Under the pieces are notes generated by a model. It searched no databases. It had not been told where the DNA came from and was given only the letters and a program-made list of their open reading frames with translations. From Nonomuraea soli (lineage in GTDB: Bacteria > Actinomycetota > Actinomycetes > Streptosporangiales > Streptosporangiaceae), in the NCBI RefSeq assembly GCF_013761175.1, contig NZ_JACDUR010000005.1, positions 530,970-594,969 of the forward strand: 64,000 nucleotides of DNA. Reading direction: 5' to 3'. Positions within the stretch are counted from its first letter, which is position 1. Every line of letters starts with the position of its first letter. This document shows, in pieces, positions 15,976-19,433 of the stretch. Position numbers and translations under genes: made by a program.

Positions 15976-17148
15976 ATGCGTGCGGTAGTGATCGGAGCGG
16001 GCATCGGCGGTCTCACCGCCGCCATCGCGTTGCACAGGAAGGGCTGGGAGGTCGAGGTCCTCGAGCGGGCGCCGCAGCTGGAGCCGGTCGGCTCAGGGCT
16101 GGCGATCGCCGCCAACGCGCTGAAGGCCCTCGACGTGATCGGCGTCGGCGACGAGGTGCGCAAGCTCTCGGCGATCCAGGGCACCGCCGGGCTGCGCAGC
16201 TCCGACGGGAAGTGGCTGATGCGCACCACGAATGACAGGGCGGTGGCGACGTTCGGCGACTCGATCGTGCTCCTCAGGCGGGCGACGCTGACGGAGCTCC
16301 TGGTGGAACGGCTGCCCAAGGGCGCACTGCGCCTGGGGGTCGAGGCAGGCTTCGGCGCGGGGACCGAACTCGGGGCAGGTCCGGTGTCCGAGGTTGGTGT
16401 GGACGATCTCGCCGACCGCTTTGGCGCTGACCTGGTGGTCGCCGCCGACGGCATCCACTCGGCCGCCCGCAGGGCCCTCTTCCCCGGCCACCCCGCCCCG
16501 ATCTACGCGGGCGTCACGGCGTGGCGGGCGATCGTCCCCAAGCCCGAGGGCGTCGTGCAGACCCACGAGACCTGGGGCAGGGGCCTCGTCTTCGGCGTCA
16601 TGCCCCTGGCCGGCTCCGAGGTCTACGTCTACGCCACCGACGTCGTCCCCGCGGGCAGCACGTTCGCCGACGAGAGGGCCGAGCTGGTCAGACGTTTCGG
16701 CTCCTGGCACGACCCCATCCCCGAGCTGCTCCAGGGTGCGGAGAAGGTGCTCAGGAACGACGTCTACTACCTGGACAAGCCCTTGCCCGCGATGCACCGC
16801 GGCAGGGTCGCCCTGCTGGGCGACGCCGCGCACCCGATGACGCCCAATCTCGGCCAGGGTGCCTGCCAGGCGATCGAGGACGCGGTCACCCTGGCCGCGA
16901 CGGCGCCCGACCTGGAGGCCTACACGCGGGCCAGGCTGGAGCGCACCGCGATGATCGTGGCCAGGTCGGCGGCGATCAACCGGGCGGTCACCCTGACCCA
17001 TCCGCTGGCCGTACGCCTGAGGAACCTGGGCGTACGGCTGGGCGGGAAGCTCAGTCCAGATCTGCTGTTGCGGTCGCAGGCACCGGTGCTGGGATGGGAG
17101 CCGCCGGCGGCTTCTTGGAGTGGTCGGGAGCCAGGCGCCCGAGTGTGA
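15976..17148 (+). CDS. FAD-dependent monooxygenase (salicylate hydroxylase-like)
   Basis: A 390-residue group A flavoprotein monooxygenase. The N-terminal Rossmann motif GAGIGGLTAAIALHRKG (about 7-23) binds FAD; VVAADGIHSAARR contains the D-G motif that contacts both FAD and NAD(P)H; GRVALLGDAAHPMTPNLGQG is the second FAD motif. Such enzymes hydroxylate aromatic or polyketide-like substrates, and some inactivate antibiotics. Divergent control by the TetR protein at 15366 fits an inducible function. The last 98 bases overlap, tail to tail, the 3' end of the transporter gene at 17051. Confidence 0.9.
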   Translation: MRAVVIGAGIGGLTAAIALHRKGWEVEVLERAPQLEPVGSGLAIAANALKALDVIGVGDEVRKLSAIQGTAGLRSSDGKWLMRTTNDRAVATFGDSIVLLRRATLTELLVERLPKGALRLGVEAGFGAGTELGAGPVSEVGVDDLADRFGADLVVAADGIHSAARRALFPGHPAPIYAGVTAWRAIVPKPEGVVQTHETWGRGLVFGVMPLAGSEVYVYATDVVPAGSTFADERAELVRRFGSWHDPIPELLQGAEKVLRNDVYYLDKPLPAMHRGRVALLGDAAHPMTPNLGQGACQAIEDAVTLAATAPDLEAYTRARLERTAMIVARSAAINRAVTLTHPLAVRLRNLGVRLGGKLSPDLLLRSQAPVLGWEPPAASWSGREPGARV

Positions 17149-17935
17149 TCGTGCCGGCGATCGTGAGCGCGGCGGCGGCGATCGCGGGGATGGCGGTGCC
17201 GGGGCTGGTCGGCAGGGGCTCGCCGAGCATGATGGCTCCGGCGAGCACGCTGGTGATCGGGTCGACGACCTGTACGCCCGCGTAGGCGATGCCGAAGTAG
17301 CCGACCGCGTAGGAGTGCTGCAGCAGCATGACGGCGCAGATGAGCAGCACCGGAATGGCCAGCGTGAACCAGTGGAGCAGCTTGCCGAAGTCGCCGTCCA
17401 TGCCGCCGCCGACGACGCGGACGAAGGTGGAGACGCTGGCCGTCGTGGCGCCCGCGCCGATCGACAGCAGCAGCGCCTTGGCCGGGCCGCTCGCCCGCTT
17501 GGAGGCCAGGTGGGTGATGAGCACGATCGTGCCGATGACGGCGATGAACACGAGTGCGGCGGGGGTCGACAGGCTCGGCTTCACGTTGTGCTCGGGCACC
17601 AGCAGCATGAGCCAGAGCAGGCCGACGGCCACGGCGATGGAGCCGAAGATCTCCGCCTTGTACGGCTTGCGGCCGTACATGAAGGCGGCCAGGGGGACGG
17701 CGAACACCAGGGTGGCCACGCTGATGGGCTGCACCGCGACGAGCGGTGCGAAGCTGAGCGCCACCGCGTGCAGGCACGCGCCGGTGAAGCCGATGATGCC
17801 GCCGATCCACCAGCGCGGGCGCTTCATCAGCGAGAACGAAGCGCCCTCCGCCACGGCTTCGTACTGTTGCAATGCCGCGCCGAGCGCGTATCCGAGGGCC
17901 CCGAGCAGGGCGATCACCAGGCCTACCCAGGTCAT
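17051..17935 (-). CDS. DMT-superfamily (NIPA/EamA-like) membrane transporter
   Basis: A 294-residue integral membrane protein with about nine to ten hydrophobic helices: VGLVIALLGALGYALGAALQ at the start, IIGFTGACLHAVALSF, AVQPISVATLVFAVPLAAF and so on to TIAGTITLGRL. The layout is that of drug/metabolite transporters; the cargo is unknown. The C-terminal 25 residues are a Pro/Ala-rich tail (KKPPAAPIPAPVPATATA) encoded antisense to the end of the FAD monooxygenase gene. The 67-bp gap behind its start holds nothing recognised. Confidence 0.85.
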   Translation of the reverse strand: MTWVGLVIALLGALGYALGAALQQYEAVAEGASFSLMKRPRWWIGGIIGFTGACLHAVALSFAPLVAVQPISVATLVFAVPLAAFMYGRKPYKAEIFGSIAVAVGLLWLMLLVPEHNVKPSLSTPAALVFIAVIGTIVLITHLASKRASGPAKALLLSIGAGATTASVSTFVRVVGGGMDGDFGKLLHWFTLAIPVLLICAVMLLQHSYAVGYFGIAYAGVQVVDPITSVLAGAIMLGEPLPTSPGTAIPAIAAAALTIAGTITLGRLAPDHSKKPPAAPIPAPVPATATADLD

Positions 17936-18002: not shown

Positions 18003-18362
18003 TTAGGCTGATCTCTCGGGGCAGACGCAGAAAAGGTGGCCCTGCGGGTCCTGCATCACGACCCATTTTCCCTCACCGGGCTGGAAGTCGGGCCTGGTTG
18101 CGCCCAGATCGATGAATTCCTGGACGGCCCGCTCCACGTCCGGCACCCGGAGATCGATGTGGAATTGCTTGTCCGGACTTGGCCACTCGACCGGCTTCCG
18201 GTCGGCCACCCGGCCGAAGTAGATGCTGGTCGTCCCATCGCCGATGGCCGCGTACTCCTCCTCGGCGTAGGTCACCTCCCAGCCCAGGACCTTGGCGTAG
18301 AAGTCAGCGAGCTTACTGGGCTCGGAGCAGTCGATGGTGAAGGCGAGAAGCGTTGCTGTCAT
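18003..18362 (-). CDS. VOC (glyoxalase/bleomycin resistance fold) family protein
   Basis: A 119-residue vicinal-oxygen-chelate fold protein: AFTIDCSEPSKLADFYAKVL opens the first beta-alpha-beta-beta-beta unit, and HIDLRVPDVERAVQEFIDLG opens the second, ending VMQDPQGHLFCVCPE. Members bind small ligands or metals and include dioxygenases, isomerases and drug-binding resistance proteins. ATG 18362 gives the family-typical length; in-frame ATGs at 18371 and 18383 are alternatives. It is divergent from the EamA transporter gene. Confidence 0.85.
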   Translation of the reverse strand: MTATLLAFTIDCSEPSKLADFYAKVLGWEVTYAEEEYAAIGDGTTSIYFGRVADRKPVEWPSPDKQFHIDLRVPDVERAVQEFIDLGATRPDFQPGEGKWVVMQDPQGHLFCVCPERSA

Positions 18363-18383
18363 GGATGTCATCGTGCCCGGCAT

Positions 18384-18421
18384 ACCTGTCAGCCGATGTC
18401 AGGTACGTTCCTCGCTATTCT
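18384..18421 (+). promoter_or_regulatory. Probable promoter and operator of the EamA gene
   Basis: TATTCT at 18416-18421 is a plausible -10 box that would start transcription near 18428, the G of the leader GTG. Upstream, ACCTG at 18384-18388 and CAGGT at 18400-18404 form an imperfect inverted repeat that could bind a regulator of this gene and of the divergent VOC gene. No clear -35 box was found. Confidence 0.4.
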
Positions 18422-18427
18422 GATCCG

Positions 18428-18466
18428 GTGCCGTATTACCTGATCTCTCCCCCGCCCGCCGTCTAG
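18428..18466 (+). CDS. Putative 12-residue leader peptide
   Basis: GTG CCG TAT TAC ... GTC TAG encodes MPYYLISPPPAV, with a run of three prolines, a known hard stretch for ribosomes. No ribosome site precedes it, but the -10 box at 18416 would place the 5' end of the RNA at or next to the GTG, so leaderless translation is likely. Its codons for Leu-Ile-Ser-Pro contain the strand that pairs with the EamA ribosome site, so ribosome position here could control EamA translation. This reading is inferred from sequence alone. Confidence 0.45.
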   Translation: MPYYLISPPPAV

Positions 18467-18557
18467 CGGGCGCCCCTCGTAGCGGACCTCGGGTCCGTGA
18501 GTGGTTGCCGCCTGCCTTCGTTCAGGCCCTTCTCCAACCACTCCCTTCGGAGAGATC
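18442..18557 (+). promoter_or_regulatory. Structured 5' leader that can sequester the EamA ribosome site
   Basis: GATCTCTCC (18442-18450) is perfectly complementary to GGAGAGATC (18549-18557), which contains the ribosome site of the EamA gene. This 9-bp closing stem encloses three further hairpins: 18454-18459 with 18466-18471, 18484-18488 with 18492-18496, and 18499-18507 with 18535-18543, the last holding an inner stem (18510-18514 with 18523-18527). The form suits either a translation attenuator driven by the leader peptide or a riboswitch. I could not match it to a named riboswitch class. Confidence 0.6.
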
Positions 18558-18560
18558 TCC

Positions 18561-19433
18561 TTGTCATCCCTTACCGCGCGCCGTGGCGCGCTGTTCATCT
18601 GTGTCGCCGCCGCCGCCTGGGGCACCGGCGGCGCCGCGGGAAAGCTGCTGTTCGAGCACGGCGGCCTCGACGCCGTCGGCGCCTCGTTCTGGCGTTACCT
18701 GCTGGGCGCGGGCTTCCTGCTCCTGGTCACCCGCACCACCAGGAGAAGCGGCACAGGTGCCGCTCCGGCAAGCGGCACGCTCCGGCACACCCTTGTCGTC
18801 GGCGCCGGAATGGCGATCTACCAGACGGCCTACTTCGGCGCGATCGCCGAGTCGGGCGTCGCGGTCGCCACCGTCGTCACCATGGGCGCGACCACGCTGT
18901 TCGCCGCCGCGGGCAGCCGCGTGTTCCTCGGCGAGCGCCTCGGCGGGGCGGGGCTGATCGCCCTGCCCGCCGCCCTGTCGGGGCTGGTCATGCTGACGGC
19001 CGAGCAGACCGGGTCGAGCACCCCGCTGGGCATCGCCCTGGCGTTGTTGTCGGCGGCCGGGTACGCGGCGGTCACCCTGTACACGAAGTCCGCGGGCCAT
19101 CACAACGATCCGGCCACAACCACCGCCGGCGCCTTCGCCGTCGGGGCGTTGTGCCTGGCGCCGTTCGCGACCCTGCCCCACGTCTCCCTGGAGACGGTCG
19201 CGTTGCTGCTCTACCTGGGCGCGATCCCGACGGCTCTCGCCTACGCGCTGTTCTTCAGGGCGCTGACCACCGTCAGAGCGTCGACGGCCGCGATCCTGTC
19301 CCTGGGCGAGGCGGTCGGCGCGGCCGCGCTGGGAACGCTGCTGCTGGGCGAGCCGCTGACGCTCCTGTCCGCGATGGGAGGTGCCGTGCTGCTCGCCTCC
19401 GTCGTGGTGTTGACCGTTCAGGGTCAAAGGTGA
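18561..19433 (+). CDS. EamA/RarD-like DMT family transporter
   Basis: A 290-residue membrane protein with two EamA repeats of five helices each: AALFICVAAAAWGTGGAAGK-like opening (GALFICVAAAAWGTGGAAGK), GAIAESGVAVATVVTMGATT, then the second repeat from LGIALALLSAAGYAAVTLYT to GAVLLASVVVLTV. These proteins export metabolites or drugs. The TTG start at 18561 fits the GGAGAG ribosome site six bases before it; upstream in-frame starts would run through the structured leader. The leader peptide and sequestering stem upstream suggest induction at the level of translation. A hairpin at 19440-19470 follows. Confidence 0.87.
   Translation: MSSLTARRGALFICVAAAAWGTGGAAGKLLFEHGGLDAVGASFWRYLLGAGFLLLVTRTTRRSGTGAAPASGTLRHTLVVGAGMAIYQTAYFGAIAESGVAVATVVTMGATTLFAAAGSRVFLGERLGGAGLIALPAALSGLVMLTAEQTGSSTPLGIALALLSAAGYAAVTLYTKSAGHHNDPATTTAGAFAVGALCLAPFATLPHVSLETVALLLYLGAIPTALAYALFFRALTTVRASTAAILSLGEAVGAAALGTLLLGEPLTLLSAMGGAVLLASVVVLTVQGQR

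Follow-up and report, generated by a model that had tools for sequence, protein, structure and literature searches.

The window, a stretch of 64,000 nucleotides from the genome of Nonomuraea soli, contains an EamA-family transporter gene preceded by a compact leader that holds a short upstream open reading frame (uORF) and a series of predicted RNA helices. The features of the locus, each with the evidence on which its assignment rests, are as follows.

18416-18421, forward strand: -10 box TATTCT (pattern TANNNT), 6 nt upstream of the uORF GTG; candidate leaderless promoter (sequence)
GTG at 18428 to TAG at 18464-18466, forward strand: leader peptide uORF of 12 codons, MPYYLISPPPAV followed by the stop (sequence)
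18442-18450, forward strand: anti-ribosome-site strand GATCTCTCC inside the uORF codons; segment 1, or the 5' arm of P0 (fold and recoding test)
18453-18472, forward strand: hairpin P1, formed by the Pro-Ala codons of the uORF and the sequence that begins at the final base of the stop codon (fold)
18466-18474, forward strand: segment 2, beginning at the final stop-codon base; its partner is the P1 5' arm or segment 3 (2:3 pairing comparison)
18482-18498, forward strand: hairpin P2 (pairing comparison across leaders)
18499-18543, forward strand: hairpin P3 (segments 3 and 4), 18499-18507 with 18535-18543 (pairing comparison across leaders)
18507-18515, forward strand: core of segment 3 with the consensus GCTGCCCGC; second possible partner of segment 2 (2:3 pairing comparison)
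18549-18557, forward strand: EamA ribosome-binding site GGAGAGATC; 3' arm of the closing stem P0 (sequence and fold)
18561-19433, forward strand: EamA-family transporter gene, TTG start at 18561, 290 amino acids (Pfam PF00892, E = 2.8e-28)

The two strands of the closing stem, the TTG start, the 12-codon frame, and the -10 box all lie in the sequence exactly where the original prediction had placed them. When the leader (18428 to 18563) was folded, its minimum free energy was -58.6 kcal/mol; 200 dinucleotide shuffles gave -39.9 +/- 3.4 kcal/mol (z = -5.5), and not one of them reached the stability of the native sequence. The closing stem with three hairpins inside it, the arrangement that had been proposed, was recovered both as the minimum free energy structure and as the centroid. 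In the computed fold, and in agreement with the recoding test described below, the ribosome site of EamA is masked by a structure that includes codons of the leader frame. A simple scan of positions 18300 to 18600 found no intrinsic terminator and no consensus sigma-70 promoter, and the -10 box was assessed by the TANNNT pattern instead. A comparison of the EamA protein with solved structures gave no sequence match at E values up to 10.

Relatives of the EamA protein were found in 53 of 54 genomes of the genus and 101 of 298 genomes of the family at an E value of 1e-40 and in 58 of 384 genomes of the class at 1e-30. Upstream stretches were retrieved for 40 loci outside the family and 60 within it, in addition to the loci that came from the searches themselves; this collection comprised 152 loci, five of which (L064, L065, L066, L068, and L104) had less than 200 nt for inspection. 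Among 147 upstream stretches (143 distinct and four duplicating another), 141 carried a short open reading frame that ended in Pro-Pro plus one to three residues upstream of EamA, compared with 4 of 147 reverse-strand controls, 0 of 52 and 2 of 52 controls taken further upstream, and 0 of 55 controls from inside EamA. With the added requirement of a TANNNT box 6 to 8 nt upstream of the frame, 139 of the 147 stretches remained and the controls fell to 0, 0, 1, and 0. The six misses were L013, L015, L117, L108, L166, and L167. The frame of L013 sits further upstream and L015 was first read from a misplaced gene start, and both carry the uORF. The retrieved coordinates of L117 miss the gene, and without this locus the corrected tally is a uORF upstream of 143 EamA relatives in 146 usable loci, those lacking it being L108 and, in family f8, L166 and L167. 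The uORF is present in L095 and L106, which lack a box in the 6- to 8-nt interval. Conservation of the small Pro-Pro frame of the original prediction is thus borne out with near-zero controls, and a chance origin of the leader was ruled out by the fold statistics together with these controls. Named records carrying the uORF include Nonomuraea, Streptomyces, Dactylosporangium, Blastococcus, and Geodermatophilus.

The leader is also close to unique within the genomes that carry it. A strict leader pattern matched exactly once in 46 of the 54 genus genomes and not at all in the remaining 8, and its reversed form, used as a control, gave 0 matches in the genus genomes. For 45 of the 46 genomes with a strict match an EamA position was available; the match ended 92 to 111 nt upstream of EamA in 42 of them, and in the other 3 the EamA alignment begins late. 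The genome of the window is among the 8 with no strict match, and its segment 2 departs from the pattern; a looser pattern had the window site as its sole match in this 10-Mb genome. Two EamA paralogues of the same genome had no such uORF in the stretch that was searched. A covariance-model scan of 396 genomes of the phylum, which had little sensitivity, as it scored just 8 of up to approximately 16,000 first-look candidates per genome, returned six positives: that of the window, one (G419) directly upstream of its EamA gene, and four weak matches.

Several other genes surround EamA. A SecA2-type gene (TIGR04221; 19523-21718, forward strand) follows it on the same strand and is the same-strand downstream neighbor in 46 of 56 long EamA loci, all of them genus-type and one of them (L119) the window's own locus again; in the 44 that were measured, it begins 93 to 317 nt past the end of the EamA alignment. 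It was not found in the other ten of the 56, which include the Streptomyces loci L010, L012, and L013, so that the link of the leader is to EamA. On the other side, a DMT-type transporter gene (NCBIfam DMT_1; 17051-17935, reverse strand) lies near EamA, with a glyoxalase-like gene (18003-18383, reverse strand) between the two; among 69 long loci, relatives of the DMT_1 transporter were present in 9 and of the glyoxalase-like gene in 13. In L108, a member of the family without a uORF, a LysR-type regulator gene (Pfam HTH_1, E = 2e-22) lies upstream of EamA on the opposite strand, which suggests that the control system has been swapped there.

The leader table comprised 143 leaders, or 110 once dereplicated, with L015 (gene start unplaced) and L106 (start unclear) excluded. 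The uORF is 11 to 13 codons long in 100 of the 110 and starts with ATG in 68 and GTG in 42. Its peptide core is mostly [S/L]-P-P-x-A, the most frequent endings being LPPPAA (23 leaders) and SPPPAR (21 leaders). The invariance of the two prolines is partly by construction, because the frame finder required Pro-Pro; the Ala two residues beyond them, kept in 103 of 110 leaders, and the control counts are not built in by this requirement. The original prediction had taken Pro-Pro-Pro as the signal, and in that exact form the idea did not hold: the residue after Pro-Pro may be P, A, T, V, or R, with the third proline replaced by A, T, or V in 28 leaders and by R in 1 more, and it is the Ala following this variable position that is kept. 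One residue follows PPxA in 97 leaders and none in 12, and the stop is near-fixed. The proline codons differ only at the third position (first proline, CCG in 85, CCT in 13, and CCC in 12; second proline, CCG in 58, CCC in 34, and CCT in 18). This drift, together with the kept Ala, counts in favor of selection on the uORF at the level of the peptide.

A peptide end dominated by Pro and Ala invites comparison with classical amino acid attenuation, in which scarce prolyl- or alanyl-tRNA would slow the ribosome and EamA would follow the supply of proline or alanine. Leaderless leuL and trpL of Streptomyces lividans with runs of the regulated residue, described in PMC8079986, lend this reading some precedent. 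However, only two prolines are kept, and 29 of 110 leaders have A, T, V, or R at the third position; the proline codons drift at position 3, unlike the Leu and Trp runs in PMC8079986; and an exporter would be an odd target for a starvation response. The combination of a run of regulated codons with a related biosynthetic gene was not found at this locus, and we regard attenuation of this kind as unlikely. A second reading based on the prolines is that the leader acts as a gauge of EF-P activity or of translation stress, such that the ribosome would stall at Pro-Pro when EF-P activity is low and EamA would be switched on along with the stall. Consecutive prolines are EF-P-dependent stall sites. 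A gauge of this type, however, would need neither the kept Ala two residues past Pro-Pro nor the near-fixed stop, and we know of no link between EamA and EF-P. C-terminal polyproline motifs do occur among selected bacterial stalling sequences in PMC13410324, and with both sides weighed an EF-P gauge appears improbable.

The position of the uORF relative to its promoter points to a leaderless start. A TANNNT box ends 6 to 8 nt upstream of the start codon in 105 of 110 leaders, a figure somewhat inflated because the box helped to decide between in-frame starts, compared with 30 of 18,530 background positions upstream. A Shine-Dalgarno-like motif precedes the uORF in 3 of 110 leaders. The original assignment of a -10 box placed for a leaderless transcript is therefore shared by the relatives. 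Each of positions -24 and -23 relative to the box is a T in 50 of 105 leaders, which hints at a weak -35 element.

Pairing between the uORF codons and the EamA ribosome site was compared with that in 60 synonymous recodings of each leader, drawn from downstream codon usage and scored without regard to register. The observed mean exceeded the recoded mean in the genus (14.9 versus 11.6; z = 7.8), the rest of the family (16.6 versus 10.6; z = 8.1), and the other leaders (14.8 versus 10.6; z = 6.9), these statistics ignoring the kinship of the sequences. Taken by itself the window is weak evidence for the pairing, because 6.7% of its 60 recodings pair equally well. Over the three groups the longest contiguous pairing averages 5.9 to 6.8 bp, and so the closing stem of the original prediction stands as a pairing common to the relatives and stronger than in their recodings, whereas its perfect 9 bp belong to the window, which has a strong version of a shorter common element. 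The absence of a conserved stem or frame in relatives had been named beforehand as fatal to the prediction, and both are present. The ribosome site contains GGAG in 99 of 110 leaders. The Ser codon TCT, rare in the downstream genes (40 of their 888 Ser codons), stands immediately upstream of Pro-Pro in 32 of 109 leaders. That the uORF pairs with the ribosome site more strongly than its peptide demands counts in favor of a further layer of selection on the uORF, at the level of the RNA. A second pyrimidine box (TCTCC or CTCTC) that could mask the ribosome site was also observed 8 to 40 nt past the uORF stop: 16 of the 36 leaders from the genus have it, as do 21 of the 33 from elsewhere in the family and 3 of the 41 remaining ones, with 2, 0, and 0 in a control stretch.

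The hairpins within the closing stem were assessed in two alignments, one (A1) of 58 of 63 dereplicated leaders, with L011, L068, L087, L094, and L099 excluded and L100 and L107 missing because they have no recognized ribosome site, and one (A2) of 35 selected leaders enriched for divergent ones. The P0 register in A1 joins columns 12 to 15 with columns 149 to 152, and its counts are valid for that register alone because the window pairs two bases further on. In P1, 91.4% of cells were paired in the 58 leaders and 88.2% in the 35; its 5' arm is coding, and neither set contained both-sided changes or covariation. P2 was paired in 97.5% of cells and covaries, with UA changed to CG at one pair in 15 of 57 cells. 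P3 was paired in 92.0% of cells, with both-sided changes at 4 of its 8 pairs, and it is rebuilt in L099, L100, and L107, where it overlaps segment 3 (TCGTTGTC:GACAACGA in L100 and L107). RNAalifold alone gave a poor consensus, in our view because MAFFT shifts the arms of P3.

An element beyond the account given by the original prediction is a competing helix between segments 2 and 3. This 2:3 helix was paired in 97.1% of cells in the 58 leaders and 95.9% in the 35 divergent leaders, 3 of which (L011, L099, and L107) have a double change from G-C to A-U at one pair. The observed values were reached by 19 of 500 shuffles for cells paired, 84 for pairs with both-sided changes, 3 for cells with both-sided changes, 58 for pair types, and 4 for the covariation score; a slide of -3 gave a slightly higher covariation score than that observed (0.179 versus 0.157), yet with only 70.5% paired. 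The covariation of the 2:3 helix is modest. Against dinucleotide shuffles the group means of its score were 26.1 versus 16.9, 22.5 versus 17.7, and 22.9 versus 19.2, and the score of a leader topped all 20 of its own shuffles in 26 of 36, 6 of 33, and 7 of 41 cases. The segment 2 consensus is GCGGGCGGC; the window has GCGGGCGCC and a weaker 2:3 helix. Segment 2 is common to P1 and the 2:3 helix, and these two pairings are mutually exclusive. With segment 2 open to either partner and segment 3 also part of P3, competition among the pairings 1:2, 2:3, and 3:4 is possible, as it is in attenuators. L099 and L107, which combine a rebuilt P3 with the 2:3 double change, are good natural test cases for a switch.

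The effect of a ribosome on the uORF was modeled by masking a footprint of 30 nt in the 36 genus leaders, the 33 from the rest of the family, and the 41 others. In the window, the cost of opening GGAG dropped from 10.9 to between 4.8 and 5.0 kcal/mol with the P site at any of the last six uORF codons, and the openness of the site rose from 0.001 to between 0.009 and 0.034. The window is extreme in this respect, because leaders of the genus gain on average just 0.9 kcal/mol or so. When the stop codon occupied the A site, the mean changes in opening cost were -0.9, -2.8, and -1.4 kcal/mol in the three groups. Opening was then eased by over 0.5 kcal/mol in 13, 28, and 24 leaders of the respective groups and made harder in 2, 0, and 3, and the mean openness was 0.18, 0.10, and 0.29 versus 0.14, 0.03, and 0.18 in the free leader. 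A single-stranded ribosome site, the expected outcome, was not obtained in the masked-ribosome models; the site was still mostly paired, and in the window a local hairpin was one of the structures that kept it so. The 2:3 helix seldom prevailed: when the P site was at the fifth uORF codon from the end, its probability was above 0.5 in 14 of 36, 6 of 33, and 12 of 41 leaders (approximately 0.003 in the window). Forcing it had a mixed effect relative to a masked segment 2. Opening became easier by over 0.5 kcal/mol in 11, 25, and 28 leaders of the three groups and was hindered in 20, 4, and 7, and also in the window. These models are consistent with some relief of the ribosome site by a uORF-bound ribosome, and their energies cannot single out a best stall codon.

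The small computed gain from a stalled ribosome in many genus leaders is what would be expected if the uORF and stem were an uninduced dampener, holding EamA at a low constant level coupled to translation and responding to no signal. Conservation of the peptide C terminus over several families and of competing helices would nevertheless exceed the needs of a constant brake, and we consider a dampener quite improbable. The window had 0 matches to Rfam at gathering score, a search of seven loci at E values up to 1 gave one chance-level match elsewhere in L001, and a known RNA family as the identity of the leader was thereby ruled out. A riboswitch or protein-binding leader with an incidental small frame would account for the conserved, covarying structure but is very improbable, since the codon pattern, start, stop, and promoter box all suit a translated frame and Rfam has no match.

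The best explanation, to which we assign a probability of roughly 0.6, is that the leader peptide arrests its ribosome and thereby unmasks the ribosome site of an exporter. The transcript would begin at or beside the uORF start codon, as the position of the -10 box suggests, and the first ribosome would load on a leaderless mRNA. If it did not stall, the ribosome would complete the short peptide and depart, and the uORF codons would refold onto the EamA ribosome site; the pairing comes from sequence comparison, and the refolded leader would presumably keep the exporter off. Under inducing conditions, a nascent chain ending in Pro-Pro-x-Ala may be held at the peptidyl transferase center by a small molecule, by slow proline chemistry, or at termination. 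The parked ribosome would cover the anti-site strand, mainly segment 1 if it were held at the prolines and segments 1 and 2 together if the P site were at the Ala or the last residue. The site would then open (a computed change of about -6 kcal/mol in the window) and EamA would be made, and through competition among 1:2, 2:3, and 3:4 the outcome could depend on the position of the ribosome. Our guess is that the trigger is either a compound exported by EamA or an inhibitor of the peptidyl transferase center.

The conserved leader and its fold-back suggest an undescribed switch that turns an exporter on upon a stall at a tiny gene. More tentatively, and at somewhat less than even odds, [S/L]PPxA(x)-stop may be a new class of ligand-dependent arrest peptide, spread over several families of actinomycetes with Streptomyces among its carriers, that detects either a native metabolite or a ribosome-targeting antibiotic and switches on an EamA exporter from a leaderless mRNA via a three-way RNA switch. 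The leader is a short and testable candidate for an arrest peptide, carried by Nonomuraea, Streptomyces, and other actinomycetes. Its inducer might be an antibiotic or a metabolite native to these bacteria, which would also indicate the substrate of an uncharacterized EamA transporter, and should the peptide respond to a compound, the EamA leader fused to a reporter would make a ready biosensor. No paper was recognized as describing this EamA leader in a survey of the literature made mostly at the level of search listings. The table of eight S. lividans leader peptides in PMC8079986 does not contain the peptide of the window, and EamA is not mentioned in the main text of PMC11109978, a survey of novel motifs, nor are "EamA," "DMT," "PPP," and "leaderless" in the main text of PMC12421871.

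Known systems offer partial parallels. Leaders of the erm and cat type mediate drug-inducible translation attenuation, and they resemble the EamA leader in a short leader frame, a fold that masks a ribosome site, and, as proposed for EamA, a stalled ribosome that would unmask the gene; the downstream product could likewise be protective. In contrast to them, the EamA uORF is apparently leaderless and the anti-site strand lies within its codons. Arrest peptides of the TnaC and SpeFL type, which control catabolic genes, resemble it in that arrest is suspected at or just upstream of the stop codon and near a proline, whereas the EamA uORF ends in PPxA(x)-stop and has an EamA-family transporter as its target. 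The S. lividans leuL, trpL, and ilvL attenuators of 12 to 18 codons, covered in PMC8079986, are similarly actinomycete, leaderless, short, and equipped with competing hairpins. Unlike these, the EamA leader has no run of one regulated amino acid, precedes neither a biosynthetic nor a tRNA-ligase gene, and folds so as to mask a ribosome site, with no terminator in a simple scan. A further parallel is provided by the antibiotic-sensing uORFs of actinomycete ABC-F genes, for which PMC12421871 describes a Streptomyces uORF that senses stalled ribosomes upstream of a resistance-type gene; in contrast to the EamA leader, those uORFs have their stall at the start codon and work through attenuation of transcription. 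Leader-peptide attenuation is already known as a kind of control, and the [S/L]PPxA family before EamA appears to be a new member of it.
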